A stretch of 64,000 nt of DNA, from contig VCJN01001031.1 in NCBI GenBank assembly GCA_006384855.1, positions 1-64,000 on the forward strand, given 5' to 3'. Below, one piece after another: positions 18,564 through 44,954 of the stretch (positions are counted from its first letter, which is position 1; every line of letters starts with the position of its first letter). The notes beneath the pieces were generated by a model. It did not search any database. It was not told the origin of the DNA and was given only the letters and a program-made list of their open reading frames with translations. The stretch is from Tetraselmis striata (lineage: Eukaryota; Chlorophyta; Chlorodendrophyceae; Chlorodendrales; Chlorodendraceae). Made by a program: the position numbers and the translations under genes.

Positions 18564-18732
18564 GATCTAAACTAGTTTATGGGGTTTCCCTCCTTGCCCT
18601 AACCGCTTTTTAGCTACAAGTGCTGCTCAGTGGTACGGGACCTAGGCATCTGTTGTTGCGCCCTTTTTGGGTGCAGCACGAGTAGACATAAAAGCAGCCA
18701 GAACAGCTGAGCCTGCCATCTTCCAGTTTTCG
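18564..18732 (+). repeat. A1 repeat of the gag/YR element
   Basis: A 169-base repeat starting GATCTAAACTAGTTTATGGG, matched by A2 at 21455-21623 with one mismatch. Confidence 0.9.
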
Positions 18733-18857
18733 TGGAACGCAGCGATGTAAAAACTGTCTCGTAACCAGTTGCGAGCAAGGTCACCCCAGGTTGTTCAAGA
18801 CCACACCCGGCTCGCCATCCGAGTGTGATATTCTCGTCCGTACGTCCGTGCGTTACT

Positions 18858-19711
18858 ATGTCAGATGGAGAAGAACCCGTCGTTGAGCCGACGCTCAAGT
18901 CGTTGCAAGCAGATGTGCGTGCATTGGCTACGGTTGTAGCTCAATTGACGCCTCGTGAGCGTGTTGTTGATGGAGAAGGGGCACATGGCTCTCGCTCCGG
19001 GCAGCGCATCGCGGGACAGCCGACAGGCAGCGGGGGAGCCGCAGAGCGCCCCGACTTGCTAGAGCTAGCCCAGAGCGGCCGTGTCGGAGCAAAATCCGTG
19101 AGTGCCGAGGATGACTACCTCGCGGTGCCAAAATTACTGCAGAGAGCAGAGTCTGGTTATGAGGCCGTTCGACCGGTCAGCCGAGTGCCTGGACTCTTTC
19201 CCTGAGCACCGACCTAACGAACGAGTACCTCAAGCAGGATGACCGGCGTCTGCCGGCCCAGGAGGAGTATTTGTGGATGTCGTGTTTCGGGGCCCACATG
19301 GCCGCGCTTTTCGTGGCTCTCGACGAGCTACTGCCCTACGTCCCTGCCACCAACCAGGACTTCACCCCCTACCTCGCAAGAGCTCGGAACCACGCCGAGG
19401 CCATCGACAAGGCGTTTCGGTTTCGTTTGGCCTTCCTGCGGAGGCTAAATGAGATCAAGCGTGTCCACGGTGACCAAGGTGTTCTGGATGTGCTGCGAGC
19501 CCAGCATTTTCAGCCTGCTTCGGAGCATCTGGGTTCCGCGATCTTTGGGGACCTCATGCGGGACTACGAGCGCCATGTCTTCCAGGCGACCGTTGCCAGC
19601 AGCGCGAAAGCAACCGCTACTGCTCGAGTGGTGGCTGCAGCTGCCGGTCGCGGGCGTGGGCGAGGACGTGGTGGTGGACGTGGGCGTGGCCGCGAAGGTG
19701 AGCACGATTGA
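18858..19711 (+). pseudogene. Gag-like protein of the YR element (frameshifted)
   Basis: The ATG at 18858 opens a frame to 19205 with an acidic start (MSDGEEPVVEP). A second frame, open from about 19170 to 19711, carries the better conserved-looking part with TLSLSTDLTNEYLKQDDRR, a long helical section and an Arg-Gly-rich tail (RGRGRGRGGGRGRGR). Such RG-rich ends commonly bind RNA in Gag-like proteins that lack zinc knuckles. The switch lies near 19165-19200 and needs a one-base change, so the copy is broken or contains a sequencing error. It precedes the recombinase on the same strand. Confidence 0.65.
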
Positions 19712-19868
19712 CGGTGTGGGGCGCCTTTCGTCGGAGCTGCTGGAGCTTTGCGAGGCCACCTTTCGGTGACCGCCGCAAGACGCACCCTTGCAGCTCAACG
19801 GCGAGATGAGCGCCCCGTGTTAGGGCCTGACCCCCCCCACCTTACAGACTTCCTTTAGACCTTCCTCG

Positions 19869-21374
19869 GTGCGTCGCTTCTCACAGCTACAGCCGAGTGC
19901 GGCTCAACCATCCGCACACCTGCACATGGCGGCTCAACTAACCGCCTCCCGTACCATTCCACCACTGCGTCCGTCGGTTGTTACACTACGTGTTACAACT
20001 GGTTCGCAACGACCAAGTTTCGCGCGGATACGTTACGCGCGAGACAGGCGCTACGAGCGCGAAGGGCGCGCAGGGCGGCCCTCTTACCTGAACCTAGCCC
20101 CGCAAACCCGTACCGATGCTACTGCAAACCCGTCGAGCAGCTACCGGCCAACCGCCGGGAACCTAACTGCTGCTGCCGAGTACTTTGCGAACAGTAGTCG
20201 TACCGGTGGAACTCTGTCAGTTAAACGACGCACTTACGTAATTGACGAGCCCGAAGCTGTCGCTCCCTGGGCTGCTTCATTGCGAGCTCGGCTGTAGGAC
20301 GCGTTCGGCTCAGACGAGCTGGGCCAGCGGACGCTCGACCTACTCTCCAGCTCCCTCAGCGCTCAGACACTCAAGAGCTACGCCGGCCGGCTGTCTCAGT
20401 TCGCGGAGTTCTGTCACGACTCCGAGAACATCAGCCCGCTAGAGGCGACTACTGCGACTGTCGTTCAATACGTTGCCTGGATCGGCGAGCGGGGGCACAT
20501 CGCCGCTAAGTCACTGCAACCTTACCTGTCTGCGATCAACACGTTCTTCGAGCTGCACGACCTCGACCCAATCGCCAAGGACAGCCTGCACTTAACTTCA
20601 GCAAGGCGTGGGCTGATGCTGCGTCAGCGCCGACTGGACGCTGCCCCTTTGCGTGTCCCTCTGCCTGCGGATGTAGCTTACCGCTTCGTCACAAAGGCCG
20701 AGCTGATTGTGTCTGCTCCCTACCCAGAGTACCACCACAAGTTCCGGGCCCTCCTGGCCTCGGTTGTCAACTTTATGTTCTTTGCCAGGGGCCTTACTGG
20801 CGTGTCCTGTCGAGTGCGAGACGTGCATGTCGACGATTACAACATCACCCTGCAAGTGTACCGCGAGAAGGGTCGCGCTGGCCGACGGGGACCCGACGAC
20901 CTGCGCGTACTTCTCCTTCCGGTGTCCGAGCACCCTCGAGTGGCACGTCTCTTGCACCACTTCATCGACAACGTCCAAGCTGTCCCCCTGGTTACTGTTG
21001 ACTTGGCTACATCAAACTTCTGGGCTGTCACTGCGGCCGAGCAGTCAAAACCTTGGACTGCGGCTACAATATCAGACTGGCTCTCTGCAGCCATCAGTCT
21101 AGTCAACGCTGCCCCCCCTGCTAGCACTTCCTGGACTTCACACAGTCTTCGCAAGGGCGCAGCTTCTGCAGCAAACGCCATCGGAGTGCCATTGTCCCAC
21201 ATTCCCTACCAAGGCGGTTGGGCCACTAACTCTGACGTCGTTCTGGACTACATCGTCCCCAACGTTCTTCCTTCACCTGGCGCATGGTTCTTCTTTGGAC
21301 ACATCGCCCCCCTCCGCCACTTCCAAGTCCAACAGGACTCCGCAGCGGTGGCCTTCCCGGTGCCTCCTTCATGA
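19869..21374 (+). pseudogene. Tyrosine recombinase of the YR element (one internal stop)
   Basis: One frame runs from 19869 to the TGA at 21372-21374, broken only by TAG at 20295-20297; about 500 codons in total. The part after the stop holds a full tyrosine-recombinase domain: an N-terminal core-binding section (LSAQTLKSYAGRLSQFAEFC), the first catalytic Arg in FFARGLTGVS, the HxxR box in SHSLRKGAASAAN, a Trp in GGWATNS at the second His/Trp position and the nucleophile Tyr in VLDYIVP. This enzyme would integrate a circular DNA copy by site-specific recombination. The 143 codons before the TAG are basic and Ser/Thr-rich and could be a linker or a separate ORF. A Crypton origin is less likely because of the split direct repeats and the Gag-like gene. 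Confidence 0.85.
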
Positions 21375-21428
21375 CTTGGCGCTACCTCTTCTCCGTCAAT
21401 CCACCGCTCTCTCCGTTCGCTCAAGACT

Positions 21429-21623
21429 GGCAAAACCAGACTCAACTTTGAAATGATCTAAACTAGTTTATGGGGTTTCCCTCCTTGCCCTAACCGCTTT
21501 TTAGCTACAAGTGCTGCTCAGTGGTACGGGAACTAGGCATCTGTTGTTGCGCCCTTTTTGGGTGCAGCACGAGTAGACATAAAAGCAGCCAGAACAGCTG
21601 AGCCTGCCATCTTCCAGTTTTCG
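21429..21623 (+). repeat. B1 plus A2 repeats of the gag/YR element
   Basis: B1 (21429-21454, GGCAAAACCAGACTCAACTT and on) abuts A2 (21455-21623) with no gap. B1 is repeated exactly as B2 at 21735-21760. Confidence 0.9.
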
Positions 21624-21734
21624 CTGCGTTCCACGCAGCGCCCCCCCCTGACTCCGTTTTCCCTCCACGCTTTCGCTAAACCATCCTGCCAATTTCGGCT
21701 CTTGACCGTGTAAAACAGCCTGCGCGACCTTTTT

Positions 21735-21760
21735 GGCAAAACCAGACTCAACTTTGAAAT
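21735..21760 (+). repeat. B2 repeat, right end of the gag/YR element
   Basis: A 26-base exact copy of B1; the element ends here. The next 60 bases (about 21762-21825) recur inverted at about 28590-28650, so they belong to another dispersed repeat. Confidence 0.85.
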
Positions 21761-21887
21761 TTGAAATAAGGGCAAACGACAAAGGTGGACCCGCCCCGGG
21801 GGGCCAGACGACAAAAGTGGACGCTACCCAAGCAGCGGGTTTTAATCGAAATTTGTACTTGTACTGCTTCCCTGCTGTAAACGTAGG

Positions 21888-21935
21888 TGTGAGGATATAT
21901 CCTATACCCTCACTAGCCCTAATCATCATAGCACA
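21888..21935 (+). repeat. 5' LTR (about 48-52 bp)
   Basis: TG...CA repeat with TGTG/CACA ends; the next four bases (TTAG) also match the 3' copy, so the end is uncertain by a few bases. An imperfect palindrome around GGATATATCC lies inside. Confidence 0.8.
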
Positions 21936-22038
21936 TTAGCATCATAGCATCATTGATTCGTGGAAGATACTCAAACGAGGTCAAATCCACTCACAATATA
22001 CTAATATACCATATGCTTTCCGCCAGGAGTCTCCTGCA

Positions 22039-22614
22039 ATGTCAGGACTACCTGGTCGAGGATATGGTCGAGGCTCTAGACCTCCAAGGCAATCATATAC
22101 TGCAGGACATGGTCATGGAGGCCGGACTGCAGGCCGGGGTCGCACTCAAAGCCAGGCGAACCCCAGGCAACTACGATACAACCCAGAATATCTCTGGATT
22201 CACCCTGATGGTAGGCCAGTCTGCTCATATTGCAATGGTTCTGGTCACAATTTTTTGGCTTGCAAATGGAGACAGCAAGAGGCAGGAGATCCTGCCCAGC
22301 CATCAAAGAAACACTATAATGATCAAATGCTGAAGCGCCAGTCAGCCTGGAAACGGACACACCCTAACCAGGACTGGGCTCAAGCATGCCGTGAGGCTTA
22401 TGATAACCTGAGCATACATCTAGGCTTTCAGCCAGGCTCAGCGGATCTGCTGAATACAGCAGTGACACCCAACATGCTTCCAAAGCGTGAGGGTGGTGGT
22501 GGTGGCCGTGGTGATGGTCGAGGCCGCCGAGGCGGCCGAGGAGGCCGCTCTGGAAGAGGCGGCGGTAGAACCGCTGGCCGTAACCAGGGTGGCCGTGGTG
22601 GAGAGCACCCATAG
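22039..22614 (+). CDS. Zinc-knuckle, RG-rich Gag-like protein
   Basis: A 191-codon frame starting MSGLPGRGYGRG. It has RG-rich ends and one CCHC zinc knuckle, CSYCNGSGHNFLAC (Cx2Cx4Hx4C), in the middle. It should be the nucleocapsid part of Gag, which binds the element RNA. A capsid domain of normal size is not visible in the roughly 150 bases between the LTR and this frame, so the ORF is either a reduced Gag or what remains after an internal deletion. The next coding frame starts about 470 bases downstream. Confidence 0.75.
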   Translation: MSGLPGRGYGRGSRPPRQSYTAGHGHGGRTAGRGRTQSQANPRQLRYNPEYLWIHPDGRPVCSYCNGSGHNFLACKWRQQEAGDPAQPSKKHYNDQMLKRQSAWKRTHPNQDWAQACREAYDNLSIHLGFQPGSADLLNTAVTPNMLPKREGGGGGRGDGRGRRGGRGGRSGRGGGRTAGRNQGGRGGEHP

Positions 22615-23088
22615 GCCATAATTTAATACTTTAACCCACAGCAGTGGAGATCATGACGTCCGCAGCGCTCCCAAGAAGAGCGTGTCTGCTGAGGCACCGA
22701 CCCAGCAAACTGCAAACAAATCTGCAGTGTAATAGAAAGCATTGGCATCTAGCATCCTGACTAAGTAGAACATGTAAATATCTTTGCTATGTTTTGTGCC
22801 AATGCATGTCTCCTACTGTATGATTAAATGTTGCCATAGAGTGCATAAGCTCGCCGTAGTAATGCACTGAATTGACAGCAGCTTTGATTCGCGGTGATGT
22901 GGATTGTGGCCGTTCAGTTGATCTGTGCCAGGGGACGCTCTGGAGTGATCCTGAACGTGAGCCTGCTCCTGTCGCTTGCGGCAGGTTCACCAACAATCAG
23001 AGTTCATCAAAGTCGGCCGACGAACACATCCCTCTGATCATATCGCTGTAATAGCTGAACTTATACACTACTGTATGATTGAATATTA

Positions 23089-23793
23089 ATGGGCAAAACA
23101 CCAAAACAAGCCCTTACAGAGGATGTGGGACCACTGCGTAGAAAACGTAGGGTCGATGACACTCAGGATACACCTGTTGTGCATCATGTACTGGAGACAC
23201 AAAAGCGCAGAAGACGCAAACACAATAAACATCACTTTGCCACTGGTCAAAAAGGCAGCTCTCCTCGAGCGCCGCAAATGGAACCAGTTGAGCAATTAAT
23301 ATATCAGCAAAAGCCGCCAACCACGGTGGATAATGCTGTGCAAACGGAAACTCTCGAGTTCCGGGATATGCAGACTCAGGTTGAGGAGCTCATATCTGAC
23401 TATAATAACAGTATGACCAGGGCAATGAGTCCTAAGTCTGATCATAATGATGCAACAGCAACCATAACAGCAGGTACAACACCCCAGCATGACACCTACC
23501 CATCGTTCAATCAGAATGCTTGGGAGGAATTGAACATGATATGGGGGCCGTTCACCCTTGATGGGGCGGCAACTGCTGAAACTACAAAGGTGATGGACAG
23601 CTATTGTTCCCCAACTAACTCTTTCTTTGATGCTGACATTACTAACCATCATATGTGGCTCAATCCACCATTTGAGAAAATCTCTGATTTTATTGCCAGC
23701 TTCGAAAGAAAGCGCAGGCAGAACCCATACAATATCTGTGCAGTAATTGCAGTGCCCAAATGGAAAAACAATAAAAAGTTCAGCATATTCTGA
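23089..23793 (+). CDS. Methyltransferase-like domain, start of Gag-Pol
   Basis: A 234-codon frame with a basic N-terminus (KRRRRKHNK). From about residue 145 it carries a domain resembling phage/Dam-type adenine methyltransferases: IWGPFTLDGAA (151-161), MWLNPPFEKI (189-198, NPPF as motif IV) and ICAVIAVPKW. The frame stops at 23793, but the domain continues in the next frame with YRKIHHYPKGAYLYD. The equivalent protein of the chromovirus at 54081-55271 is uninterrupted there. The shift occurs at TAAAAAG (23772-23778), so it is either a mutation or a -1 frameshift site. Whether the domain is catalytic is unknown. DIRS-type elements carry a comparable domain. Confidence 0.7.
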   Translation: MGKTPKQALTEDVGPLRRKRRVDDTQDTPVVHHVLETQKRRRRKHNKHHFATGQKGSSPRAPQMEPVEQLIYQQKPPTTVDNAVQTETLEFRDMQTQVEELISDYNNSMTRAMSPKSDHNDATATITAGTTPQHDTYPSFNQNAWEELNMIWGPFTLDGAATAETTKVMDSYCSPTNSFFDADITNHHMWLNPPFEKISDFIASFERKRRQNPYNICAVIAVPKWKNNKKFSIF

Positions 23794-26162
23794 ACACCTA
23801 CCGTAAGATCCACCATTATCCAAAGGGTGCATACTTGTATGACATCCCTGATCCCAAAAACCATAAAGAGCGGATACCAATGGGTCCGACTCCATTTTCA
23901 GTCGATGTATATTTGGCTGATCATACTGTGGAGGACAGAGTGCGTGATAAAGCGCACAACATAACAACACAATATCAAATCCCCACAGCAAATTTTACCT
24001 CTCAGACTGTTGAAACAGATCTGTTGAAAGCAAAGGCTAAAATCAAGGCCAATAATGATATCCTGTCTGATCAAGTTGAAATACTGATTGACAGTGCTGC
24101 CCAGCGAGAATTCATCTCGTGGGATATTGTACAAAAATATGACTTGCCGGTGAAATTGCTGGATCAAGCAATAAAAATACAACTGGCAGATGGCACATCA
24201 TATAAAATCTCTCGACACTATGTAACATTAACGCTTCATTTTGAGGCTGGTTATACCACAGAGGCTAATTTTATTTGCCTCCCCAGTAACAATAACTGGG
24301 ATGTCATATTAGGCATTCCATGGCTCAGAAAAAACAACCCAGATATCCACTGGGATGATGGAACTATACATGAAAGACAAACAGATGCTACACTGTTTGG
24401 CTGTGAGATCCAACCCAGACCAGCAGTAGTTAGCATACTGTCGGCAAATCAGATGGCTAAGCTGCTACACATCTCTGCTGAACCAATCAAAAATGCAGAG
24501 GCGGCATCATTCTTTATAGCCACTCTGAAAGAAGACTTTATTCCTACCCAGACATCACAAATGAAAACGGATGATCTGCAGGTACACACTGACTTTGGCC
24601 CACAATATGATGAAAAAATATTGAATATAATCAAACAATATGGCCATGATAAAGATACTTTGACTGACCTGCCACCGAGCAGAGGGAAGTTTGATCATAG
24701 TATACCAATTATACCTGATGCTAACCCGCCAAAAGGGCACATTTATAAAATGTCTCCTGCGGAGCTAACTGAGTTGAAAAAACAACTAACACAGTACCTG
24801 GAGAAAAACTGGATCCGACCCAGTTATTCGCCATTTGCAGCTCCGGTACTCTTTGCCAGAAAATCTGATGGCACTCTCCGGATGTGCATTGACTATAGAT
24901 CACTGAACAAAATAACACTGGGTACACAATATCCCTTGCCCAGAATTGATACTATATTGGACCGTATTGCCACTGGCAAATGCTGGACCTGCTTAGACTT
25001 GTCCAAAGCATATCATCAGATCCGAGTGAAAGAGGAAGATGTCTATAAGACATCCTTCATCACTCAGTTGGGTCAATTTGAGATGAGAGTCCTGCCGTTT
25101 GGGCTGAAAACAGCACCAGGAGGATTCCAATCATATATTAACGCAGTGTTCAATGGCACTGCTGATCACACACACCAAGACACAAATATCCTTGATGATT
25201 TTGTGATCTGCTATCTTGATGATATAATCATATTCAGTGACACTCCGGAGCAACATATTGACCATATTGATCAGGTACTTGCGAGACTGCACAAACACCA
25301 TTTGTACCTGAATCCCCGGAAATCACAATGGGGCAAAAAGCAAATAATATATCTGGGTCACCGTATAACGGAAAAGGGTAAATTCCCTGACCCTGAAAAA
25401 ATAAAAGCAGTCACAGAATGGCCGGTACCAAAATCTGTCACAGATGTCAGGGCCTTCTTAGGCTTTGTAGGATATTATCGATCATTTATTGAGGACTTTG
25501 CTGCAATAGCAAAGCCCCTATTTGATCTGACAAAAAATAATATATTTCCGGCCTGGACTGACACCCACCAACATGCTTTTGATCGCCTAAAATATAAAAT
25601 GACACACGCCCCGATTCTAATGAATCCCATCACTGGCCCGGACGCAGAGTTCGTGGTCACAACTGATGCCAGCAAATATGCTGTGGGCGCGGTGCTCATG
25701 CAAAAAGACCCCAATGCCGGACAGCTGCGTCCTGTAGCTTACCTGGCAAAGGTCTTGAGGGGTGCGCAACTGCGCTATTCCACCTATGATACTGAATTTT
25801 TGGGAGTAGTGATTGCTCTCCAACATTGGCGACATTATTTGAAAGGGTGTAAACATTTTACCGTAGTCACTGACCATACCACCCTCCGTCATCTGCCGAC
25901 ACAAGAAAAGCTCAGCAGAAAACATGCTGGCTGGTCCCAAATTATATCACCATATATGGACAACATGGACATTGTCTATAAAAAGGGATCTCAAAATATG
26001 GCAGATGCACTGAGCAGGAGACCAGATCTAAAAGATCTGAAGGCATCATTGGATGCATACTATATGCAGACCTTTGAAGAGGATCTGGAGCACATCACTG
26101 AATGGCTCAATCTTACCACTGTCTCGATACAGTTGGATAAACAATTCCTCAACAATATATAA
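23779..26162 (+). CDS. Pol: protease, reverse transcriptase, RNase H
   Basis: The frame is open from about 23778 (first ATG 23838) to TAA at 26160-26162. It begins with the end of the methyltransferase-like domain. The aspartic protease site is LIDSAAQREF (DSAA in place of the usual DSGA). The RT has LRMCIDYRSLN, LDLSKAYHQIRV, MRVLPFGLKTAP and CYLDDIIIF (YLDD catalytic box). RNase H shows VVTTDASKYAVGAVL, DTEFLGVVIAL and VVTDHTTLRHL. Together these make and mature the element DNA. The TAA separates it from the integrase frame, which follows in the same phase ten bases later; in most relatives Pol is one polyprotein, so the stop is probably a mutation. Confidence 0.92.
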
Positions 26163-26171
26163 TTAAAATAT

Positions 26172-27650
26172 ATGCAGGACCCAAAATTGAACAAAGACAA
26201 GCTACCCCCTGGAGTACGATATGACCACTATACTGAATTGTATATGGTAGCTGATAAAATATATATTCCTGCAGATGATGAGCTCAAAAAGAGCATCATC
26301 AAAGAACATCATGATATTAAGACGGCTGGCCATAACGGTATTCTCAGAACTGAGAAATTGATCAAAAGAAATTTTTGCTGGCCGCACATGCACCAAAACA
26401 TAAAAACATATATCCGAAACTGTAAAGTCTGTAAGCTGACAAAGCAGCATACACAGGCTCCAGCAGCGGCTTTACAACCACTGCCAACACCTACTGTACC
26501 ATGGGAATATTTCAGTCTTGACTTTATCACAAATTTACCATCAGTGGATGGTTATGACTGTATTGCCACTTTTGTGGATTTATTCACAAAGCAGGCTCAC
26601 TTTGTACCCTGCCAAAAAGCCATCACGGCTCCTGAATTGGCACAATTATACATTAAAAACATATACAAACTCCACGGTCTCAGTACTTGCATGGTAGGAG
26701 ACCGGGACACAAAATATACATCATCATATTTCCAAGAACTGTTCAAACAGCTTGGTACAACATTGAACCTCAGTACTGCTTATCATCCGCAGACTGATGG
26801 ACAGACTGAAATATTGAACAAAATAATTGAGCAGTTGCTGCGAGCTTTCTGCTACAATAACCAGCAGGACTGGGTGAACTACCTGTCACTCGCTGAGTTC
26901 AATTACAATAACACAGAATCATCAACAACAAAGTTTACTCCATTCCAGGCAATATATGGCTTCCATCCTCGGTTGCCCATAGATATTGTAAACCCCAAAA
27001 CTGGAGTGAGAGAGACAACAATAGACATTCTGTCGAAAATTCAGGATATACACAATCTGGTGCATGAAAACATTATAATTGCCAAAGAATACCAAAGGCA
27101 TTACCATGATAAAAACAATAAACAGCCGATCACATTTCAAATCGGTGATAAAATAATGATAAAAACAGACGATATGATTATACGCGGACAAAAATGTCCC
27201 AAGCTCAAACAACGATATGTAGGACCATATGAGGTCATCGAACAGGTGAATCCTCAGGCCTACAAAATACAATTACCACCTGAGCTTGAGTGCCACCCAG
27301 TATTTCATGTCTCCAAGCTGAGACCCTGGGACACCGTATCTGCACAAACTGATATTCCTGATGCCTTGATTGGCAGACAGACACGCAGAACGGATGATCC
27401 GATCATTGCGGACATCACTGACTGTAAATTGGCACTATATCCCAGACTGTATGCAAAGGGCAAAGCCTTGCTATTTAAAGTAAGGTTCCACAATTTCCCC
27501 GCAACCGGAGATGACTGGATGCCCTACGAAACAATGCGGTATTCACCGCTAATGCAGCATTATATGCTGTCGGAACAATACAAACATATCTCGACCTCAC
27601 CAGCATACATTGCTGCTAAGGCGAGCTACCCGCAACGGTTCCCACCGTGA
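26172..27650 (+). CDS. Integrase with chromo-like C-terminus
   Basis: A 492-codon frame. The HHCC zinc-binding domain is seen as EHHDIKTAGHNG followed by CKVCKLTKQH. The DDE core has SLDFITNLPS, VGDRDTKYTS and the region after YHPQTDGQTEILNK. The GPY/F module reads RYVGPYEVIEQVNPQAYKI. The C-terminus (LFKVRFHNFPATGDDWMPYE and following) looks like a diverged chromodomain, which in chromoviruses directs integration to marked chromatin. The frame follows Pol after a single TAA and ends about 35 bases before the 3' LTR. Confidence 0.92.
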   Translation: MQDPKLNKDKLPPGVRYDHYTELYMVADKIYIPADDELKKSIIKEHHDIKTAGHNGILRTEKLIKRNFCWPHMHQNIKTYIRNCKVCKLTKQHTQAPAAALQPLPTPTVPWEYFSLDFITNLPSVDGYDCIATFVDLFTKQAHFVPCQKAITAPELAQLYIKNIYKLHGLSTCMVGDRDTKYTSSYFQELFKQLGTTLNLSTAYHPQTDGQTEILNKIIEQLLRAFCYNNQQDWVNYLSLAEFNYNNTESSTTKFTPFQAIYGFHPRLPIDIVNPKTGVRETTIDILSKIQDIHNLVHENIIIAKEYQRHYHDKNNKQPITFQIGDKIMIKTDDMIIRGQKCPKLKQRYVGPYEVIEQVNPQAYKIQLPPELECHPVFHVSKLRPWDTVSAQTDIPDALIGRQTRRTDDPIIADITDCKLALYPRLYAKGKALLFKVRFHNFPATGDDWMPYETMRYSPLMQHYMLSEQYKHISTSPAYIAAKASYPQRFPP

Positions 27651-27685
27651 ATCTGTTGACTCAGATTCATCAGAGCGGGGTGGAA

Positions 27686-27733
27686 TGTGAGGATATATCC
27701 TATACCCTCACTAGCCCTAATCATCATAGCACA
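27686..27733 (+). repeat. 3' LTR (about 48-52 bp)
   Basis: Identical to the 5' LTR over its whole length and preceded by a purine-rich tract. Identity of the two LTRs fits a recent insertion. Confidence 0.8.
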
Positions 27734-27738
27734 TTAGG

Positions 27739-35300: not shown

Positions 35301-35922
35301 ATACAACTCCCAGTACACAACGTTTCACTCTCACCAGGTACCTGAACCCCTCCGGGAGGGGCTTGCCTGCAATAGTCGCAATAGCCACCAAAATGTTCGG
35401 TTGGTCCGTACCGCCTTAACTGAGTGAGTTCCGTTTCTTGAGTTCCCCTTCTTGAGTCGCCCGGTACATGTGGTTCCTTTTGAGGAGACACACGTGTTGC
35501 AGTGTGTTCACTGGGCATGTTGCTTGGAGGCAGGGCTGGGGGCTTGTTACACCGTGGCCGCTATTTCGGATGAGGTTATTCCGACTGCTGATTCTTTTGA
35601 ATTTTCTAAATTGTTTTAGGGTTTTGGAAACACTTTGAAACCCTAGCTTCGTGTGACCGCCCCTACCCCGTGCACAGGGTACATGACGCCACCCGAGGAG
35701 AGTGCCGATGAGCCAAAGCGGCGCCCGCTCATGACCCTCAGCATGAAACGGCCCAAATACCGGCGCGCGCCAGTTCTGCCGCCAGGCGCCTCTGTGCTGC
35801 CAGAGTCCCAGTCCGACCTCACCGACCTTAAGCACATCCGCATGCACGAGGACGGCTCCTCGCGGCGCTCAACCAAAGACGAGAAAATATGGAACCGGAT
35901 GGTGAATTTTGTGCGCCGCTGA
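29371..35922 (+). CDS. Large armadillo/HEAT-like repeat protein (12 exons, 5' end unresolved)
   Basis: Exons 29371-29451, 29523-30255, 30308-30767, 30880-30968, 31102-31318, 31383-31589, 32299-32402, 32498-32916, 33163-33274, 33384-33545, 34853-34997 and 35678-35922 splice with consistent phases to about 990 codons ending in TGA. All donors are GT (mostly GTGCG or GTGAG) and all acceptors AG. The first part is Ser/Ala-rich and acidic, probably disordered (SEPSSDDDSSVDLDA). From exon 8 helical repeats of armadillo type appear: LIALAEQPTGAEAVAKEGGL, LVRVMQRFQAEEAVQDKG and NVAYSAVGALLAIAQ. A basic patch (NLKKKHIKKLRKR) may be a nuclear signal. Such proteins act as binding scaffolds; no specific function is claimed. 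Intron 10 contains a TIR element and a poly-C run; the intron after exon 6 has a 29-base G run. Confidence 0.8.
32005..32033. repeat. Poly-G run, 29 bases, in an intron of the armadillo-like gene
   Basis: A pure G run followed by one A and more G. A C run with CA repeats (31608-31640) lies near the donor of the same intron. Confidence 0.95.
33728..33753. repeat. Poly-C run, 26 bases, in intron 10 of the armadillo-like gene
   Basis: Lies about 50 bases left of the TIR element in the same intron. Confidence 0.95.
33806..34714. mobile_element. Non-autonomous TIR element (909 bp) in an intron
   Basis: Perfect 29-base terminal inverted repeats (33806-33834 and 34686-34714) start AGACCACACTCGGCATAGAT. 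ATAGG occurs just outside both ends (33799-33803 and 34716-34720), a possible 5-base target duplication with one or two bases between it and the TIR. Inside are GGGCCGCGGCCC-type repeats (33962-34020), a 92-base perfect palindrome (34484-34575) and no coding frame of note. It is a deletion-type relative of the element at 13297-16203. It lies between exons 10 and 11 of the armadillo-like gene and would be spliced out. Confidence 0.85.
34484..34575. repeat. 92-base perfect palindrome
   Basis: Two 46-base arms meet at TCGGGCCCGA with no spacer; it could form a cruciform or hairpin. The related element at 16.0 kb has one arm partly deleted. Confidence 0.9.
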
Positions 35923-36058
35923 TAGCCTGGGAATAGATAGCCCGCATGCCGGTCGCAGCCTGTCAAGCACGCGCGTACAAGAGGCTTTCATGCTCCATCC
36001 AATAAGAAAGGCATCGCCCAGGTATACCGCCGAAACACGCGCCTTCAACCGTTGTATA

Positions 36059-36063
36059 TGTAA
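36059..36063 (+). terminator. Putative poly(A) signal TGTAA of the armadillo-like gene
   Basis: TGTAA lies 137 bases after the stop at 35922, the first such motif downstream. Confidence 0.5.
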
Positions 36064-36323
36064 TTCTTTCTCGGTGGCGATGCGCCATGATGGGCGTACA
36101 GTGCACATGACGTGTCGGAGGTACAGTTTTTTAATTCGACGGTTACGACTACGCGCGACCGCTATTCAGGATTACTTGCGCGTCATTTCGTTGTACCAGT
36201 ACTAGTAGCGCCTGTGTCTAACCCTATGTGATATGATGATATGTTTACTACGAGTAGTTGGGGTTTTATTGCCCTTGTCATCTACTTGGCAGGCGCGGTA
36301 CGGCACAAATACGTTGCTGATAT

Positions 36324-36537
36324 GTTCTAAACTTGTTTATGTGGTTTCTCTACCTGTACGAGATAGCCCTGGCGCGGCGCCCGTAGCGCGTGTGTGCGCA
36401 CGATTGCGGGGGCCGGTCAGAGCCACCACCTGCCTTCGCACGATTGCGGGGGCCGGTCAGAGCCACCACCTGCCTTCACGGCGGACCGACCGGTCACTCT
36501 CCTTTGCTGTGGCACGCTCCATCGAGCGCACCACAGC
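36324..36537 (+). repeat. A1 repeat of the RT-bearing element
   Basis: Matches A2 (44669-44846) apart from a 40-base internal tandem duplication and a four-base gap. The first bases resemble those of the gag/YR element. Confidence 0.88.
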
Positions 36538-36784
36538 AAAGTCGCGGCAATTTTGCCGCGCAGGTGCCGGTCTTCCGCCATCGTACCATGTACGGTGAGC
36601 GACGCCTTTCGGGGCCCCCCCTGGGAGAAACCCGTTAGGGTTTGTGTGATTAATGTACGCGCGCCGCTTGCGACGTGCTAACTACTACCCGCGAACGAGA
36701 TGCTGATTACTCGCCCAACGCGAGGAGAGGACGAAGCTGCAGCGCTTCCCCATTCAGTGGAACAAGGTCCAAGACCTTCGACCA

Positions 36785-38620
36785 GTGTCGACCAACAGTA
36801 ACCCCTGGCTTCCCTTTCCCGTGTGGGCATGGCTCGATCTGTACTGGCCCCTACTCGGCGTAGGTCTCGCGATGCGCTCTGATTGGGGCGTATGCATGCC
36901 GGCGTATGCCCGTCGTCTAGTACAGATTCGAGTACAAAGTGACAGTACACTGCCAGTGGCCAAGCCAGCGCCCAGTGGCACATGGCTACTCCCACGCCGC
37001 GGCACTCCTACTGTGCCGCGCACCGTGGACCCTGACGCCGACGCGGAGAGGGGCAGCAGAGCGACAGGGCGCTCTGCTCGCCCCCCTCGCGACATCCATC
37101 GCGCCAATTCCTGTACTCCCGACTCCCCCTTTATGAGACATCGCGTCCGTCGTAATCTCGGCAACTGGCAAGCCGCTGGCGCAAATCGCAGTGTTCTCAA
37201 CTGGATATCCCGAGGTGTACGCGTTCCTTTCTTGGACGGGCTTGCCCCACCTTCTTTTCATCAGGGGGTGTCAATGGGGGATGCTACTCCTGCTCAACTG
37301 GAGTTTATGGACGGTGAATTGGCTCGCTTCCTGGCCGTTGGGGCCTGGGAGCGAGGCTACTGCGCAAAATGGGTGTCCCGGCTGTTCCTGGTTCCTAAGC
37401 CTGGAACAAACAAATGGAGGCTCATCATTGACCTTCGCCCCCTTAACCGCTATTGCGAGACGCGCGATCTTTCGTTTGAGACGCTTTCGCATTTACGCAA
37501 TCTGGCGCGCCCTGGGGACTACATGTTGCAGATGGACCTGCAGGACGGGTTTTACGCGGTTGGAATCGCCCCTGAGGACAGGGATTTTTTCACTGTCGAT
37601 TACCGCGGCACTATGTACCGACTGGCTGGCCTTCCCATGGGCTGGTCTCTGTCCCCCTATTACTTCTGCCAATTCACCAACGTCCTCACTAGGGCATTGC
37701 GTCGTAACCCGGCTGAAGCAGATGGCACGCCTATTTTCCAGCGACGATTTGGCCTGCGCATGTTGCCCTACATGGACGATTTCCTGTTTCTAGCTCGGAC
37801 TCAGGCTGAGGCCATCTGGCAACGTGACTACATCGAACGCCACCTCTCGGGCTTTGGTCTGCTGCGCAACCCCAACAAGGGCGTGTGGGAGCCCACTCAA
37901 AAGCTCGTGCACCTGGGGTTAGAAATTGACACATCGGGGTCACCTACTCTTCGTGCGCCCGCTGAGAAACTCGCCAGCATTGCTCGCGCGGCCAAACGCC
38001 TAATCCAACGAGCAAAACGCGATCGTCGGTGGTTGCCAGCTCGCGAGTTGGCCGCTCTCGCGGGAAAATGCCAGTTTCTCTACTTGGCCATTGCCCCTGC
38101 CCGTTTCTACCTTCGTGAGCTGCATGATGTGCTCAAGACGCGCGACTCTTGGTCCGGCCGCGTCAAGCTTACCCGCCAGCTCGAACGCGATCTGCAATGG
38201 TGGGTGGGTGTGCCCACCCAACACAACGGCCGCCCCATTAACCGCCCCGTCGAAACCGGATACCTACACGTCGACAGTTCGGCTTACGGCTGGGGTGCCG
38301 TTTTGAATGAGCACCATGAAGCTCGGGGTTTTTGGTACGACGATGACCGCAATGCGCACATTACCCTGAAAGAGCTCAAAGCCGTCCGCTTGGCTATCGA
38401 GTCCTTCCTCCCCATGCTCCAAAACCGCCACATCCGCTTGCACGAGGATAACCAAGCAGTTGTCGGCGTCCTCACTAACCTCACCTCCCGCTCCCCACGC
38501 CTCATGGCTGAGCTACGCAAAACGTGGTACCTCATGGACACGCACGGCATCACCCTTTCCGTGCGCTACATCCGTTCTGCGGCGAATATCTGGGCTGACC
38601 GCCTTAGTCGCGGGTTGATT
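36785..38620 (+). CDS. DIRS/PAT-type reverse transcriptase and RNase H
   Basis: The open frame starts by 36785; in-frame ATG codons at 36872 and 37130 are possible starts. RT motifs in order: LVPKPGTNKWRLIIDLRPLN, LQMDLQDGFYAVGI, RLAGLPMGWSLSPYYFC and MLPYMDDFLFLA (YMDD, catalytic Asp pair), followed by VHLGLEID. RNase H shows YLHVDSSAYGWGAVLN, ITLKELKAVRLAIE and LHEDNQAVVGVL, ending ANIWADRLSRG. The LPMGWSLSP and MDDFL forms are typical of DIRS-order polymerases, not Ty3. The frame continues to 39148, but after about 38620 the real protein switches frame into the methyltransferase-like domain, so one base has been gained or lost. Confidence 0.92.
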
Positions 38621-38961
38621 GCGACGACTGGCAGTTCAACCCTCGTCGATTCGCCTCGCTCACTGCTAAATGGGGCGCCTGCACCATCGACCGCTTCGCG
38701 ACTTCTGAAAACGCCCTCCTGCCCCGCTACAACGCCCGCTGGCGTGACCCACGGTGCGAGGCCGTCGACGCCCTGCGCCTCTCCGACGCTGCATGGCGTT
38801 GCGAACGTAACTGGTGTAACCCTCCGCGGAACCTCATCGGCGATCTATTCTCCAAACTTGAGTCCAGCGGTGCCCCAGCCATCGTCATTGTTCCCTACTG
38901 GCCTGACAAAGCTTGGTACCAGCTCCTCTCGGAGATGTGCTCCGACATGCGCTCTTGGAAG

Positions 38962-39775
38962 GGAAAAAGGGCGATTATTGAGTCAAAATGGGCACATTTC
39001 TGGACTCAAAATTGCACCCCCCTTAACTCAATATTGTACCCCTTTTGGGGGGTGCAAATTTGAGTCCAGCCTAACACTGTACGAATGTACTGTGAAACTG
39101 GCTTCCTTTTCTTGCCAACACTGTACGAGGTACTGTTCAGTGAAATGAACCTTCACTATGTACTACACGCCTGTCCACCGCCCTTTGACGAGATGCGTCG
39201 CTACCCTTCCACGCCAACCGTTTTTTCTGGCCTCGAATGCTACGCCGCCACTGTGCTTCCCACTCATCTACCCCTCGCAAGCTCCCTCGCGCTTGTATTC
39301 TTTGAGGCATCTTAACGCTTCTCGGTGCACAAAAGCATGGCAGACCGTCCTCGCAGAGCGAAACGCACATCTGCCCGCTTGCACAGTTCTGTGCGTGGCG
39401 GGGACATCTGCGGCTGCACTTGGCTTTGACCCAACGAGCAAGGCTCTCGACACACTGCTAGTGACCCCCATGGCGCAAGATTCTCCGCAGATGCACTTGC
39501 GTTCCGACAGGAGGGCGTCTCAGGCGCCAATACCCACGACTCAGCCCATGAGGCCCATGCAGCCGGGCGGTGGGCAACATGGAAGCGGACCGCTATGGCC
39601 CGGGGCCGGAGATTCGCAGCCTTCGCCTCACGGCGAGCCTCAGCCTGACCCCCCAAGCCTCAAGGTGTGCCACCTTTGGTCCCTCTCCCAGGAGCGACTC
39701 CAACGGTACGCGGACTCGCATCTTCGCTTGCATCTCTCATCAGGGCGCCGTGGGCGGCGTTAAGCGCACCTCGCC
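38962..39775. other. Left part of the 5.5 kb insertion; no recognised gene
   Basis: After the terminal repeats (to about 39070) there are overlapping frames such as 39158-39763 without any known domain. The last part resembles the end of the 593-base unit. Confidence 0.35.
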
Positions 39776-41570
39776 GTCGCGCATCTCGACATGTGTGCGA
39801 GACAGCGGGAACCATGGCGGCGGCGAGAGACGCGGCACTGGAACCCGGAGGCCCACATTGGGGACGACGGGTACGCCCTCCCGGACGTCAAAGCAGCGGT
39901 GGCTGAAGACGTCAAAGCAGCGGTGACTGACGAGCAAGAGATGCGGAGGGTGGAGAGAATTTAAAGGTAGAGGGTGGGATTACCAGCATCTCCGCAGTGG
40001 GGGCATATGAGCGCTCGCATCTCTCGCGTACAAACCCGTGAACTATCGCTCCTAGCTCTTGTAACGCTGCCCTGTGCAAGGATCCCTTTGTCGTTGTCAC
40101 GTCGCCTTGGTTCACTCACCTGAATTTGCTCCTACCGCTGCTGGCGGCCTACAAGGCGGAAATCTGTTGCGTGCAGATTCCGAGCACCTACTTGACGCAA
40201 GGGCCCCGCCCGCAAATGAACTACCTCCACAGTCTGTTGAAAGCGGGTCGTGCACTTCTCATCGCGTCAAAGCACCCAAGAAACCCCGACACCAACAGAC
40301 GCGCCTTGTGGTTGGTCGTCGGACGAGATTCGGCGACTTTAAGGGCGCATCTCTCGGAGCACCTCGGCAAGCAACGTGGGTTCGTGTATGCGAGACGGCG
40401 AGAACCATGACGGCGGCGAAAGAGATGCGGCACTGGAACCCGGAGGCCCACATTGGGGACGACGGGTACGTCCTCCCGGACGTCAAAGCAACGGTGGCTG
40501 AAGCCACCGCTGGCACGACTGACGGGCAAGAGATGCGGAGGGTGGAGAGAATTTAAAGGTAGAGGGTGGGATTACCCGCCGCATCTCCGCAGTGGGGGCG
40601 TATGAGCGCTCGCATCTCTCGCGTGCAAACCCGTGTACTGTCGCTCCTTGCTCTTGTAACGCTGCCCTGTGCAAGGAGCCCTTTGTCGTTGTCATGTCGC
40701 CTTGGTTCACTCACCTGAATGCTCCTACCGCTGCTGGCGGCCTACAAGGCGGAAATCTGTTGCGTGCAGATTCCGAGCACCTACTTGACGCAAGGGCCCC
40801 GCCTGCAAATGAACTACCTCCACAGTCTGTTGAAAGCGGGTCGTGTACTTCTCATCGCGCCAAAGCACCCAAGAAACCCCGACACCAACAGACACGCCTT
40901 GTGGTTGGTCGTCGGACGAGATTCGGCGACTTTAAGGGCGCATCTCTCGGAGCACCTCGGCAAGCAACGTGGGTTCGTGTATGCGAGACGGCGAGAACCA
41001 TGACGGCGGCGAAAGAGACGCGGCACTGGAACCCGGAGGCCCACATTGGGGACGACAGGTACGTCCTCCCGGACGTCAAAGCAGCGGTGGCTGAAGCCAC
41101 CGCTGGCACGACTGGCGAGCAAGAGATGCGGAGGGTGGAGGGATCGAATTGACCGCCGTAAAGGGTGGGATTACCCGCATCTCCGCAGTGGGGGCAGGTG
41201 AACGCCCGCATCTCTCGTGTACAAACCCGTGTACTGTCGCCCCTAGCTCTTGTAACGCTGCCCTAGGCAAGGAGCCCTTTGTCGTTGCCATGTCGCCTTG
41301 GTTCACTCACCTGAATGCTCCTATAGCTGCTGGCGGCCTCCAAGGCGGTAATCTATCGCGTGCAGATTCCGCCGAGCACCTACACGACGCAAAGGCCCCT
41401 GCCGCGAATGGACTACCTCGACAGCATGTTGACAGCGGGTCGTGTACTTCTCATCGCGCCAAAGCACCCAAGAAACCCCGACAGCAACGGACGCGCCTTG
41501 TGGTTGGTCGTCGGAAGAGATTCGGCGACTTCTCTCGGAGCACCTCGGCAAGCAACGTGGGTTCGTGTCT
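39776..41570 (+). repeat. Tandem array, about 593-bp unit, three copies
   Basis: The marker ATGCGGAGGGTGGAG occurs at 39941, 40533 and 41126, giving units of 592 and 593 bases; a partial unit precedes and a truncated one ends the array. Units 1 and 2 each keep a plus-strand frame of 94 codons (40126-40410, 40719-41003) with few amino-acid differences; unit 3 keeps part (41360 on). The frame reads EICCVQIPSTYLTQG then LLKAGRALLIASKHPRNPD and RALWLVVGRD. Just upstream is VVVTSPWFTHLN, in the right place for a methyltransferase motif IV (SPWF). That reading is tentative. Confidence 0.8.
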
Positions 41571-41736
41571 GGTCCGTGACAATGGATTCATGCAGCTTGA
41601 AATTCGTTGCCATAGCTCCCTGGACAATACCTCATTAATCATAATCAACTATCACAACAAATCATTCTCAACCGCAGATAAGAGTTTAATCGACTCTTGT
41701 CCGTCGATTTCACAAACCGCACTTCCTTTGCTAGCG

Positions 41737-41866
41737 CGGCCGGGGTAGCGGGGCGCCAACGCGCCGCGGCCGGGGCACCGGGGCGCCAACGCGCCGCGGC
41801 CGGGGCAGCGGGGCGCCAACGCGCCGCGGCCGGGGCAGCGGGGCGCCAACGCGCCAACGCGCGGCG
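41737..41866. repeat. 30-bp GC-rich minisatellite, about 4 copies
   Basis: The unit is close to GCGGCCGGGGCAGCGGGGCG plus CCAACGCGCC. Its reverse complement matches the minisatellite at 51596-51914. Both strands stay open in frame through the array. Confidence 0.9.
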
Positions 41867-41889
41867 ACCGGCGCATGTTGGTGATTCAT

Positions 41890-42985
41890 GCAGCCCCGCA
41901 TACTTAATGGTTTGCAGCCATCTAGGCAATCAAAGCATGCTTAAAGGCAGCATCTGCGGTGCAGCGCTGCAGCACTCTGCGGCGTGCCGCCAGCAAATAT
42001 AACGTATTATCCCTACTGCCCTGCAATCTGTATGGTATCGACAAGCAGGTGCGTATTCATATCCCTTCTATGCCATGCAGCCCCGCATACTAATAAATGG
42101 TTTGCAGCCATCTAGGCAATTGAAGCATGCCTTAAGGCAGCATCTGCGGTGCAGCGCTGCAGCAATCTGCGGCGTGCCACCAGCAAATATCAGGCATTAG
42201 ACCTACTGCCTTGCAATCTGCATAGTATCGTCAAGTAGGTGCGTGTTCATATCCCTTCTATGCCATGCAGCCCCGCATACTAATAAATGGTTTGCAGCCA
42301 TCCAGTCAATTAAAACATGCCTTAAGGCAGCATCTGCGGTGCAGCGCTGCAGCAATCTGCGGCGTGCCGCGAGCAAATATCAGGCATTAGCCCTACTGCC
42401 TTGCAGTCCGTATAGTATCGTCAAGCCGGTGCGTGTTCACATCCCTTTCATGCCATGCAGCCCCGCATACGAAATGGTTTGCAGCCATGTAGGCAAATGG
42501 CTGCAGCAATCTGCGGCGTGCCGCCAGCAAATATGAGGTATTAGCCCTACTGCCTTGCAGTCCGTATAGTATCGTCAAGCCGGTGCGTGTTCACATCCCT
42601 TCTATGCCATGCAGCCCCGCATACTAATAAATGGTTTGCAGCCATCTAGACAATTAAAGCATGCCTTAAGGCAGCATCTGCGGTGCAGCGCTGCAGCAAT
42701 CTGCGGCGTGCCGCCAGCAAATATCATGCATTAGCCCTACTGCCTTGCAATCTGCATAGTATCGTCAAGCAGGTGCGTGTTCACATCCCTTCTATGCCAT
42801 GCAGCCCCGCATACGAAATGGTTTGCAGCCATCTAGGCAATAGAAGCATGCCTAAAGGCAGCATCTGCGGTGCAGCGCTGCAGCAATCTGCGGCGTGCCG
42901 CGAGCAAATATCAGGCATTAGTGTTACTGCCTTGCAATCTGTATAGTATTGTAAAGCATATGGGCAATTAAATCCCCTTTTTGTC
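41890..42985. repeat. Satellite array, about 190-bp unit, six copies
   Basis: The marker GCAGCCCCGCATAC starts at 41890, 42077, 42267, 42457, 42611 and 42801, so spacings are 187, 190, 190, 154 and 190. The fourth unit has a 36-base deletion. Units share CATCTGCGGTGCAGCGCTGC and TCTGCGGCGTGCC blocks. Short frames recur but none is convincing. Confidence 0.9.
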
Positions 42986-43319
42986 ATAAAAATCCTCATA
43001 CTGGAAGGTTGCCGAGCCGGCTCTTTACCCCCCACCGTCTTGGTCGATGACCGCTACTACCAGGTCGTAGCGGCGCCGCGTCAGGCGGGCGGGTCCTCTA
43101 AGCCCGCATCTCAACCACCGCCACCGGGGTCCGGCGGAGATGGCTCCCAAAACGGCGCTGCAGCAGGTCTCTTGATAGAGCTTCGAGCAGTTCCGTCCCT
43201 CCCCCGAGCAGGCTTGGTCCCTCGGAGACTGCCAAGCCGCCGAGTGAGCCTCAGCCTTCGAGTGCGACGAAGCGCCCGCACGGTGCGTTGAGCACGGGAG
43301 GCAAGATCAGCTTGTCGCC

Positions 43320-44110
43320 CATTAAGCTGCGCAAAAAGCATTCCAAGAAGCGCGGGCCGAGTCCTCCTTCAAGATGGCGATAGAGTTGGAGGACGACGAC
43401 CCCTTCCAGACGCCTAAGCCGAAACGCGAAACCACGTCAAGCCGACAGGCGCCTTCGGGTGCCGCTGGTGGGAGTCGCAGGGCCCACATCTTCCCGTGGC
43501 GGTGCCGCACTGCCGCATCTCCGCCTCCCCGACCCGCATTTCCGCCTATGGAGGCAAGAGCAGCAGCTTGTAGCCCAATAAGCTGCGCAAGAAGCATTCC
43601 AAGAAGCGTGGGCCGAGTCCTCCTTTAAGATGGCGATAGAGTTGGAGGACGACGACCCCTTCCAGACGCCTAAGCCGAAACGCGAAGCCACGTCAAGCCG
43701 TCAGGCGCCTTCGGGTGCCGCTGGTGGGAGTCGCAGGGCCACATCTTCCCGTGGCGGTGCCGCACTGCCGCATCTCCGCCTCCCCGACCCGCATCTCCGC
43801 CTATGGAGGCAAGAGCAGCAGCTTGTCGCCCATTAAGCTGCGCAAGAAGCATTCCAAGAAGCGTGGGCCGACTCCTCCTTTAAGATGGCGAAAGAGTTGG
43901 AGGACGACGACCCCTTCCAGACGCCTAAGCCGAAACGCGAAGCCCCGTCAAGCCGTCAGGCGCCTTCGGGTGCCGCTGGTGGGAGTCGCACGGCCACATC
44001 TTCACGTGGCGGTGCCGCATCTCCGCCTCCCCGACCCGCATCTCCGCCTAAGGAGCCCTCATCTCGGGACGCGAAGCCCGCACCGCCGCCTGCGCCGACA
44101 TATCGCCCCA
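43320..44110 (+). repeat. Coding-like tandem array, about 255-bp unit, three copies
   Basis: Copies of the frame starting MAIELEDDDPFQTPKPKR begin at 43374, 43630 and 43885 (spacing 256 and 255). Between them runs the segment LSPIKLRKKHSKKRGP in another frame. One unit in each phase keeps an open frame, so the array could be a duplicated exon of a basic, Pro/Ser-rich protein. Confidence 0.85.
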
Positions 44111-44193
44111 ACGCCGCGTCGCTGTCAGCAGGTTTCAGAGGTAGCATCTCGTTGCGACGAACACAATCTCTGAGGTCGGCGATAGACTCGTAG
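43885..44193 (+). CDS. Low-complexity protein, last copy of the 255-bp repeat
   Basis: A 102-codon frame starting MAKELEDDDPFQTPKPKR, then Ser/Ala/Gly/Pro-rich sequence and an ending LRRTQSLRSAIDS. It has an acidic patch next to a basic one but no domain. It is the only copy of the repeat that runs on into unique sequence, so it may be the true 3' end of a gene whose middle was triplicated. Expression is unknown. Confidence 0.35.
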   Translation: MAKELEDDDPFQTPKPKREAPSSRQAPSGAAGGSRTATSSRGGAASPPPRPASPPKEPSSRDAKPAPPPAPTYRPNAASLSAGFRGSISLRRTQSLRSAIDS

Positions 44194-44640
44194 GCCGGGG
44201 GCGTCTTCTCTGCGCGAGTGAGGCTCGATTTCCAGGCTTGAAACGCTTGAAACGCAGTCGCCATGCCCTCGCGTCCGCAATCTTCCAAGGTGAGGCGGAT
44301 AGTACTTTACGCGACTGAGGGCGCGAAGAGGACACGCCGATGTGCCATTTATAGTACTCTCGTATAGTATTGCATTGCACCTGAAATGTGACCGAAAAAT
44401 GGGTACATATCCCAGCCTAAGCGATCACGTGGGGGGCACATTTTTGAGTCCAGGAATTGGACCGTTTTGACTCAAAAATGTGTATGCCATGTACCCTCTT
44501 GGAAGCCGCGCCACGACCTCTTCATTCCTGGCCGTACCGGCGACCGCCTTCCTGTGGGCGCACCCCGCTGGCCTGTCGTCGCCTTCAACATTCCCGCCCG
44601 TGACCCCCGCCCGTGGCCTGCTGCGCCCGGCATTTTCTAG

Positions 44641-44846
44641 TCGGCAAACCAGACGATCCTTGTGAAATGTTCTAAACTAGTTTATGTGGTTTCTCTACCT
44701 GTACGAGATAGCCATGGCGCGGCGCCCGTAGCGCGTGTGTGCGCGCGCACGATTGCGGGGGCCGGTCAGAGCCACCACCTGCCTTCACGGCGGACCGACC
44801 GGTCACTCTCCTTTGTTGTGGCACGCTCCATCGAGCGCACCACAGC
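44641..44846 (+). repeat. B1 plus A2 repeats of the RT-bearing element
   Basis: B1 (TCGGCAAACCAGACGATCCT and on, 44641-44668) directly follows the TAG of the methyltransferase-like frame and abuts A2 (44669-44846). Confidence 0.88.
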
Positions 44847-44926
44847 CCGCCCAACCCTCCCTGGCTGTGGGATCGTATGCCTGCAAATTCCTGAATATCA
44901 CAACCTGTAACCAGACCTGGCATTCT

Positions 44927-44954
44927 TCGGCAAACCAGACGATCCTTGTGAAAT
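44927..44954 (+). repeat. B2 repeat, right end of the RT-bearing element
   Basis: An exact copy of B1, including the bases GT that follow it. The spacer A2-B2 is 80 bases. Confidence 0.85.

Follow-up and report, generated by a model that had tools for sequence, protein, structure and literature searches.

Two elements with split direct repeats of the form A1-B1A2-B2, here called E1 and E2, lie on the forward strand of a contig from the green alga Tetraselmis striata (GenBank assembly GCA_006384855.1, contig VCJN01001031.1). The stretch analysed, referred to below as the window, comprises positions 1 to 64,000 of this contig. An earlier note had read E1 as a unit with gag and a tyrosine recombinase (YR) gene and no reverse transcriptase (RT), and E2 as a unit with RT, RNase H (RH) and methyltransferase (MT) and neither gag nor YR, and had proposed that the two could be parts of one retroelement. 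As far as the test of this proposal could be run, in the window and across the 224-Mb assembly (2,903 contigs), it is supported.

The features of E1 in the window are:

18561..21760, forward strand: E1 window copy, A1-ORF1(gag)-YR-B1A2-B2, damaged; it starts near TGATCTAAAC and ends near GAAA
18562..18732, forward strand: E1 repeat A1, 171 nt; A2, at 21453-21623, is 99% identical
18858..19711, forward strand: E1 open reading frame 1 (ORF1), putative Gag, with an RG-rich C-terminus; frame-broken in the window copy
19824..21374, forward strand: E1 ORF for the tyrosine recombinase; an open copy encodes 482 aa, and the window copy has a stop at 20295-20297
21428..21760, forward strand: E1 B1-A2-B2 block, containing a circle-type B/A junction

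The B end of this copy is found at 21428 and 21734. Its gag is split over two frames and its YR frame is interrupted by the stop. The YR frame from 20298 to 21374 gave a Pfam match to Phage_int_SAM. For the E1 YR as such, the N-terminal SAM domain scored above the Pfam cut-off, PF00589 was weak and below it (E 0.005), and the catalytic HxxR...W...Y region of Cre could be aligned (E 0.0012). No RT match was found within the unit. The layout A1-gag-YR-B1A2-B2 without RT was thus borne out by the YR match, the repeats and the lack of an RT match. ORF1 is called Gag solely from its position and its RG-rich tail.

The features of E2 in the window are:

36324..44954, forward strand: E2 window copy, A1-RT-RH-MT-insertion-B1A2-B2
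36324..36540, forward strand: E2 repeat A1, with an additional ~40-bp internal duplication in the window copy
36707..39148, forward strand: E2 RT-RH frame, running 813 aa between stops; the stretch beyond 38961 is insertion sequence
38962..44495, forward strand: foreign insertion in E2, 5,534 bp long and flanked by a 10-bp target duplication, CTCTTGGAAG; outside the system
44496..44640, forward strand: terminal part of the E2 RT-RH-MT frame, with its stop immediately ahead of B1
44641..44954, forward strand: E2 B1-A2-B2 block, its junction common with E1

The A repeat of this copy was located at 36318 and 44663, and its B end at 44641 and 44927. Pfam matches to RVT_1 and RNase H fall in 36707-39148 and no match to gag or YR was found in E2, which agrees with the layout A1-RT-RNase H-B1A2-B2 proposed before. 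The methyltransferase part of that proposal fared less well. In the window copy the reading frame shifts near 38608, so that the MT part, from 38608 on, lies in another frame, and this C-terminal frame had no Pfam match. The full protein predicted for the E2 family, P0122, gave a weak match to PF05869 (Dam; E 0.007, below the Pfam cut-off), and PF05869 is precomputed for several relatives of the E2 RT. P0122, with the full RT-RH-MT frame, is the representative of a cluster of 77 predicted proteins.

Minus the insertion, the window copy of E2 measures 3,087 bp and a second copy, C2868:35123-38171, about 3,049 bp, in line with the length of about 3.1 kb estimated earlier. The possibility that the ~5.4-kb region is a component of E2 was considered and rejected, since a target duplication marks it as an insertion. 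Imperfect inverted repeats lie close to the ends of the insertion, which also has repeat blocks spaced by about 593, 190 and 255 bp.

Junctions of both families were counted across the assembly by pattern searches allowing 2-3 mismatches; reversed-pattern controls gave 0 for the E1 5′ junction, the E1 gag/YR boundary, the E2 5′ junction, the E2 3′ junction and the E2-type B1A2 junction. There were 768 E1 5′ junctions, 947 E1 gag/YR boundaries, 196 E2 5′ junctions and 161 E2 3′ junctions (RT end to B1A2), 86 of the 161 being letter-perfect. The spacing of these junctions was then examined among the places listed. For E1, the listed places used were 69 of 100 for the 5′ junction and all 100 for the boundary. 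Partners were lacking for 27 of the 69, and in all of the 42 pairs (42/42) the 5′ junction and the gag/YR boundary were 995-1040 bp apart; there is, therefore, no space for an RT inside them. For E2 the input was 100 listed 5′ places and 82 of the 100 listed 3′ places. The spacing was 2406-2594 bp in 53 of the 57 pairs, which therefore have no space for gag and YR, and 43 of the 100 5′ places were without a partner, four of these sitting on contigs that have a listed 3′ junction.

The remaining four E2 spacings were 2865, 8057 and 8067 (C1208 and C1006) and 9293 bp (C943). The long spacing of the window recurs in C1006 and C1208, contigs that have the window's E2 flank, C1208 having its E1 flank also (flanks in C819, C1208 and C1006). 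From their flanks, C1006 and C1208 look like haplotigs or segmental duplicates of the window locus. The E2 copy with the 9.3-kb spacing (C943:18494-27839) probably contains a further large insertion. On another contig, C75 (L035/L036), two E2 copies lie head to head, their starts about 500 bp apart.

Individual copies gave the same picture. Among 20 E1 copies fetched besides the window copy, none had an RT (0/20); 17 were complete with an identical layout and three were without a 3′ end. Counting frames from stop to stop, with thresholds of at least 313 codons for gag and at least 505 for YR, gag was open in 12 of the 20 and YR in 12; both were open in eight, five of these without a shifted stretch. 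A1 led directly into the RT region in 30 of 30 E2 5′ ends, the window and its two duplicates included, and in 15 of the 30 5′ parts the RT frame had no stop within the 466 codons fetched. The earlier note would have recognised a two-part element by numerous copies of either half sharing their internal boundaries, and this outcome was obtained as uniform junctions and fixed spacings (42/42 and 53/57). No copy examined had gag, RT and YR together with E1 or E2 ends. The other reading offered in that note, two chance deletion derivatives, is contradicted by the genome-wide counts and the fixed spacing, which rule out chance or local deletion as the origin of the halves.

The two families were compared at the DNA level (word size 7; one E1 copy against the 5′ and 3′ parts of an E2 copy). 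The terminal motifs noticed before proved to be real and part of a longer match: at the B/A junction the elements share TGAAATG[A/T]TCTAAACTAGTTTATG[G/T]GGTTTC, 31 nt at 94% (E 1e-7). Outside this junction and its pieces, the other matches were 11-12 nt long (E 0.5-2), and the A and B repeats of E1 and E2 differ there. In the complete copies read, B1 is joined to A2 as expected of the junction of a circle.

The insertion sites also agree. Position -2 was A or T in 17 of 17 E1 and 16 of 16 E2 insertions, position +1 was C or T in the same 17 of 17 and 16 of 16, and C was seen at position -4 in none of the 33. Given the composition of the flanks, the chance of a 33/33 result is about 4e-10. A bigger set of left flanks (21 E1, 28 E2) showed the same site picture. 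PAT elements insert without a target duplication. No sign of a target duplication beyond chance was seen in the 33 E1 and E2 flank pairs: left and right flanks shared no bases in 24 and 1-4 bases in nine, the longest matches being four bases in one E1 copy and three in one E2 copy, with a mean match of 0.48 against 0.45 in shuffled pairs. Insertion without target duplication is also described for DIRS1-like elements in excerpts of PMC4157794 and PMC3266345. Because the junction and the insertion-site preference agree, the simplest reading would be that a single recombinase, encoded by E1 alone, integrates both E1 and E2.

Selection on the coding regions was estimated as dN/dS, each copy being compared with one reference copy (L052 for E1, L012 for E2) after removal of out-of-frame codons. 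Between E1 sub-lineages the ratio was 0.11-0.16 for YR (L044, L051, L053, L058; dS 0.20-0.28) and 0.10-0.15 for gag (L044, L049, L051, L053, L058; dS 0.20-0.33). Younger E1 copies gave 0.17-0.33 for YR. For the E2 RT, at low divergence, the ratio was 0.11-0.40 in 23 of 26 usable rows. Rows with few codons were set aside (codons and dN/dS in brackets): for gag the window (115, 1.07), L043 (94, 1.05), L045 (65, 0.36), L048 (25, 0.32), L056 (58, 1.43) and L057 (76, 0.89); for YR L045 (55, 0.00) and L049 (28, 0.42); and for RT L009-L011 (20 codons, dS 0). The ratios show that purifying selection acts on gag, YR and, at lower divergence, RT. Low dN/dS and open frames suggest that function is maintained in each half, though it is without the genes of the other.

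The arrangement of E1 is also found in a distant relative. A divergent E1-like element at L050:5649-7413 has matched gag and YR pieces of 49% and 45% protein identity, and in L050:5900-7413 gag adjoins YR with no RT between them; gag dS is 0.73 and dN/dS 0.17. Within E1 copies A1 and A2 differ by 0.0126, against 0.0171 between copies (18 copies, permutation p 5e-5). This modest effect would fit regeneration of the repeats by reverse transcription.

The genome also contains a full-length family, E3 (P0138/P0139; L061, L062), with RT-RH-MT and YR in one unit, its RT 62% identical to that of E2 and its YR 40% identical to that of E1. In P0139, RT-RH and YR are inside one gene model. Several genome copies match both parts of E3, and in L061 and L062 YR follows RT-RH-MT directly in another frame. 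E3 was considered as also existing in a YR-less form; this was rejected, as the 849-aa frame is the RT-RH-MT ORF alone. Judged by repeat spacing in contig C158, the unit would be ~4.9 kb long. Its 5′ boundary was set where 39 other scored copies start matching (query 34-50). E3 thus resembles E1 and E2 in having RT-RH-MT and then YR, but it is one unit and its 5′ terminal sequence, taken from one copy, differs from those of E1 and E2. The expectation that no full-length unit shares the A/B repeats therefore held in everything examined. E1 had no significant match to the first ~1 kb (5′ part) of E3.

Several further gene models contain pieces of both RT and YR, and in trees the E2 RT falls beside families that also encode YR in their proteins. 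The trees give the E2 RT and E1 YR no settled place among these lineages, a result that would fit an origin of the two halves from one unit but is not proof of it. The nearest full-length family was sought from paired RT and YR trees, which gave no resolution. IMG/VR scans for relatives of RT and YR found none. The E1 YR and E2 RT have counterparts at up to 98% identity among the proteins predicted for Tetraselmis striata (Tetstr1). P0001 (YR, 92% identical) and P0329 (a gag piece, 98%) each list one 5,779-base contig of JGI source, which suggests that E1 is present in another sample.

E1 and E2 are thus probably two replicons that together make up a split PAT-type tyrosine-recombinase retrotransposon. 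E1 would provide ORF1, the putative Gag, and YR, and E2 would provide RT-RNase H-MT. Both would be transcribed, the Gag of E1 would package E1 and E2 RNAs, and the RT of E2 would copy the two RNAs. B1A2 would be used to join the ends into circles with an identical B/A junction, and the YR of E1 would insert both circles at sites of one type, approximately DNWW^Y, with no target duplication. Judged from sequence, the dependence of E2 on the E1 recombinase is well supported; E1 would in turn depend on the RT of E2, and presumably neither half moves alone. To the stronger statement, that the two form an obligate bipartite retrotransposon in which each replicon is without an essential enzyme, the pair being tied by the common junction and by selection on both, we give roughly even credence.

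According to excerpts of PMC4157794 and PMC3266345, E1 and E2 together resemble PAT-type elements (PAT, TOC3-like, kangaroo) in A1-B1A2-B2 repeats, YR, RT-RH with a putative MT, and green-algal occurrence, and PAT elements hold gag, RT-MT and YR in a single unit. The difference is that all domains of a PAT-type element are in one unit, whereas here they are split over two families. VIPER and SIRE offer another likeness, in that VIPER, a YR retroelement, may act as helper to a non-autonomous SIRE through common split repeats; SIRE, however, is described in excerpts of PMC6681497 as a short truncated derivative of VIPER (A2-B2 part), and the relation is one-sided, whereas both partners here code and their content is complementary. 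No described bipartite retrotransposon was found in the literature as judged by titles and the beginnings of abstracts, most subscription journals lying outside the search.

Several observations weigh against the reading as two replicons of one element. ORF1 of E1 had no relevant Pfam match, that is, no recognised Gag domain, and its comparison with the E3 ORF at the same position was not significant (E 0.041). Three E2 RT rows (L020, L024, L036) had dN/dS of 0.68-1.02, at dS about 0.006 and with very few changes, and the YR piece of the distant relative L050 gave 0.83 (141 codons, dS 0.88, near saturation) with no sign of selection. There are 152 E2-type B1A2 junctions when these are counted whatever precedes them, a tally separate from that of E2 bodies. 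The fixed spacing rests on 42 E1 and 57 E2 pairs among the places listed. The trees did not place the E2 RT and E1 YR among the full-length families, and the YR tree carried long-branch warnings. Lastly, E1 is more numerous than E2 by about 4:1, which recalls a host and its parasite, and it might take its RT from E3 or another family.

The last two points lead to the alternative that survives best, a one-sided dependence in which E1 uses the RT of E3 or other families and E2 parasitises the recombinase and Gag of E1, with no mutual need. The fourfold excess of E1 and the presence in the genome of E3 and several other RT-bearing families favour it, but a pure parasite would need neither an RT frame kept open (15/30) nor the low dN/dS found in 23 of 26 rows. 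E2 is, moreover, uniform, with 86 of 161 3′ junctions letter-perfect, and no significant match links E1 to the 5′ part of E3 through which the RT of E3 could be recruited. We regard this alternative as unlikely.

A second possibility is that a rare or unassembled full-length gag-RT-YR master with E1/E2 ends keeps producing both halves as deletion derivatives. Full-length families of like kind exist (E3), the assembly is fragmented and the copies examined were those among the places listed. The junctions are nevertheless identical in hundreds of copies and across sub-lineages, E1-type gag adjoins YR even in the relative at gag dS 0.73, and halves of a recent master would have whole repeats in common, whereas those of E1 and E2 differ outside the junction. 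A hidden master is therefore rather improbable.

E1 without RT also recalls the Cryptons, YR DNA transposons without split direct repeats, which YR alone suffices to move. E1 might then be a DNA-only element needing no RT, and E2 the sole retroelement, borrowing the YR of E1. Unlike a Crypton, E1 has the A1-B1A2-B2 split direct repeats typical of retrotransposing YR elements and a second ORF, under selection, at the gag position; the closer similarity of A1 and A2 within copies, a modest effect, also speaks against this view, which we consider decidedly improbable. It is scarcely credible that E1 and E2 are dead relics with selection inherited from a full-length ancestor, as the damage to both window copies might suggest, when gag and YR are both open without shifts in five of the 20 E1 copies fetched, 86 of 161 E2 3′ junctions are letter-perfect and selection continues between RT-less sub-lineages.

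Three further observations concern the surroundings of the pair. Directly ahead of E1 lies a smaller element:

16903..18560, forward strand: 1.65-kb element; its start is of the E1 type, TGATCTAAAC, and its end resembles B

Besides the window and its duplicate C1208, the 1,926 candidates yielded 38 scored places with relatives at 78-82%, and in one general search for E1 and E2 genes the element was apparently without them; it may be a satellite of E1 and E2. Between E1 and E2, at 23775-27650, lies a Ty3/gypsy-like retroelement, with Pfam matches to protease, RT and RNase H in 23775-26162 and a next frame that is integrase-like by eye. Elsewhere, on contig C292 (L033), an E2 copy begins about 305 bp past the end of an E1 copy of like orientation; one gene model, P0144, joins E1 gag and YR to E2 RT and may stem from such a neighbourhood.

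Screens that start from YR require RT and MT within 10 kb, as described in excerpts of PMC3266345 and PMC4157794. Such screens could miss halves of this kind or score them as broken, and further split elements may be overlooked because RT and MT are demanded near YR. Non-autonomous retroelements usually rely on a complete master. If the pairing of E1 and E2 is true, a stable pair of incomplete halves would mean that the genome of a retrotransposon can be segmented, giving a transposon counterpart of a segmented virus. The cis-preference of RT, the specificity of packaging and the cooperation of selfish elements would then become testable in a culturable alga.

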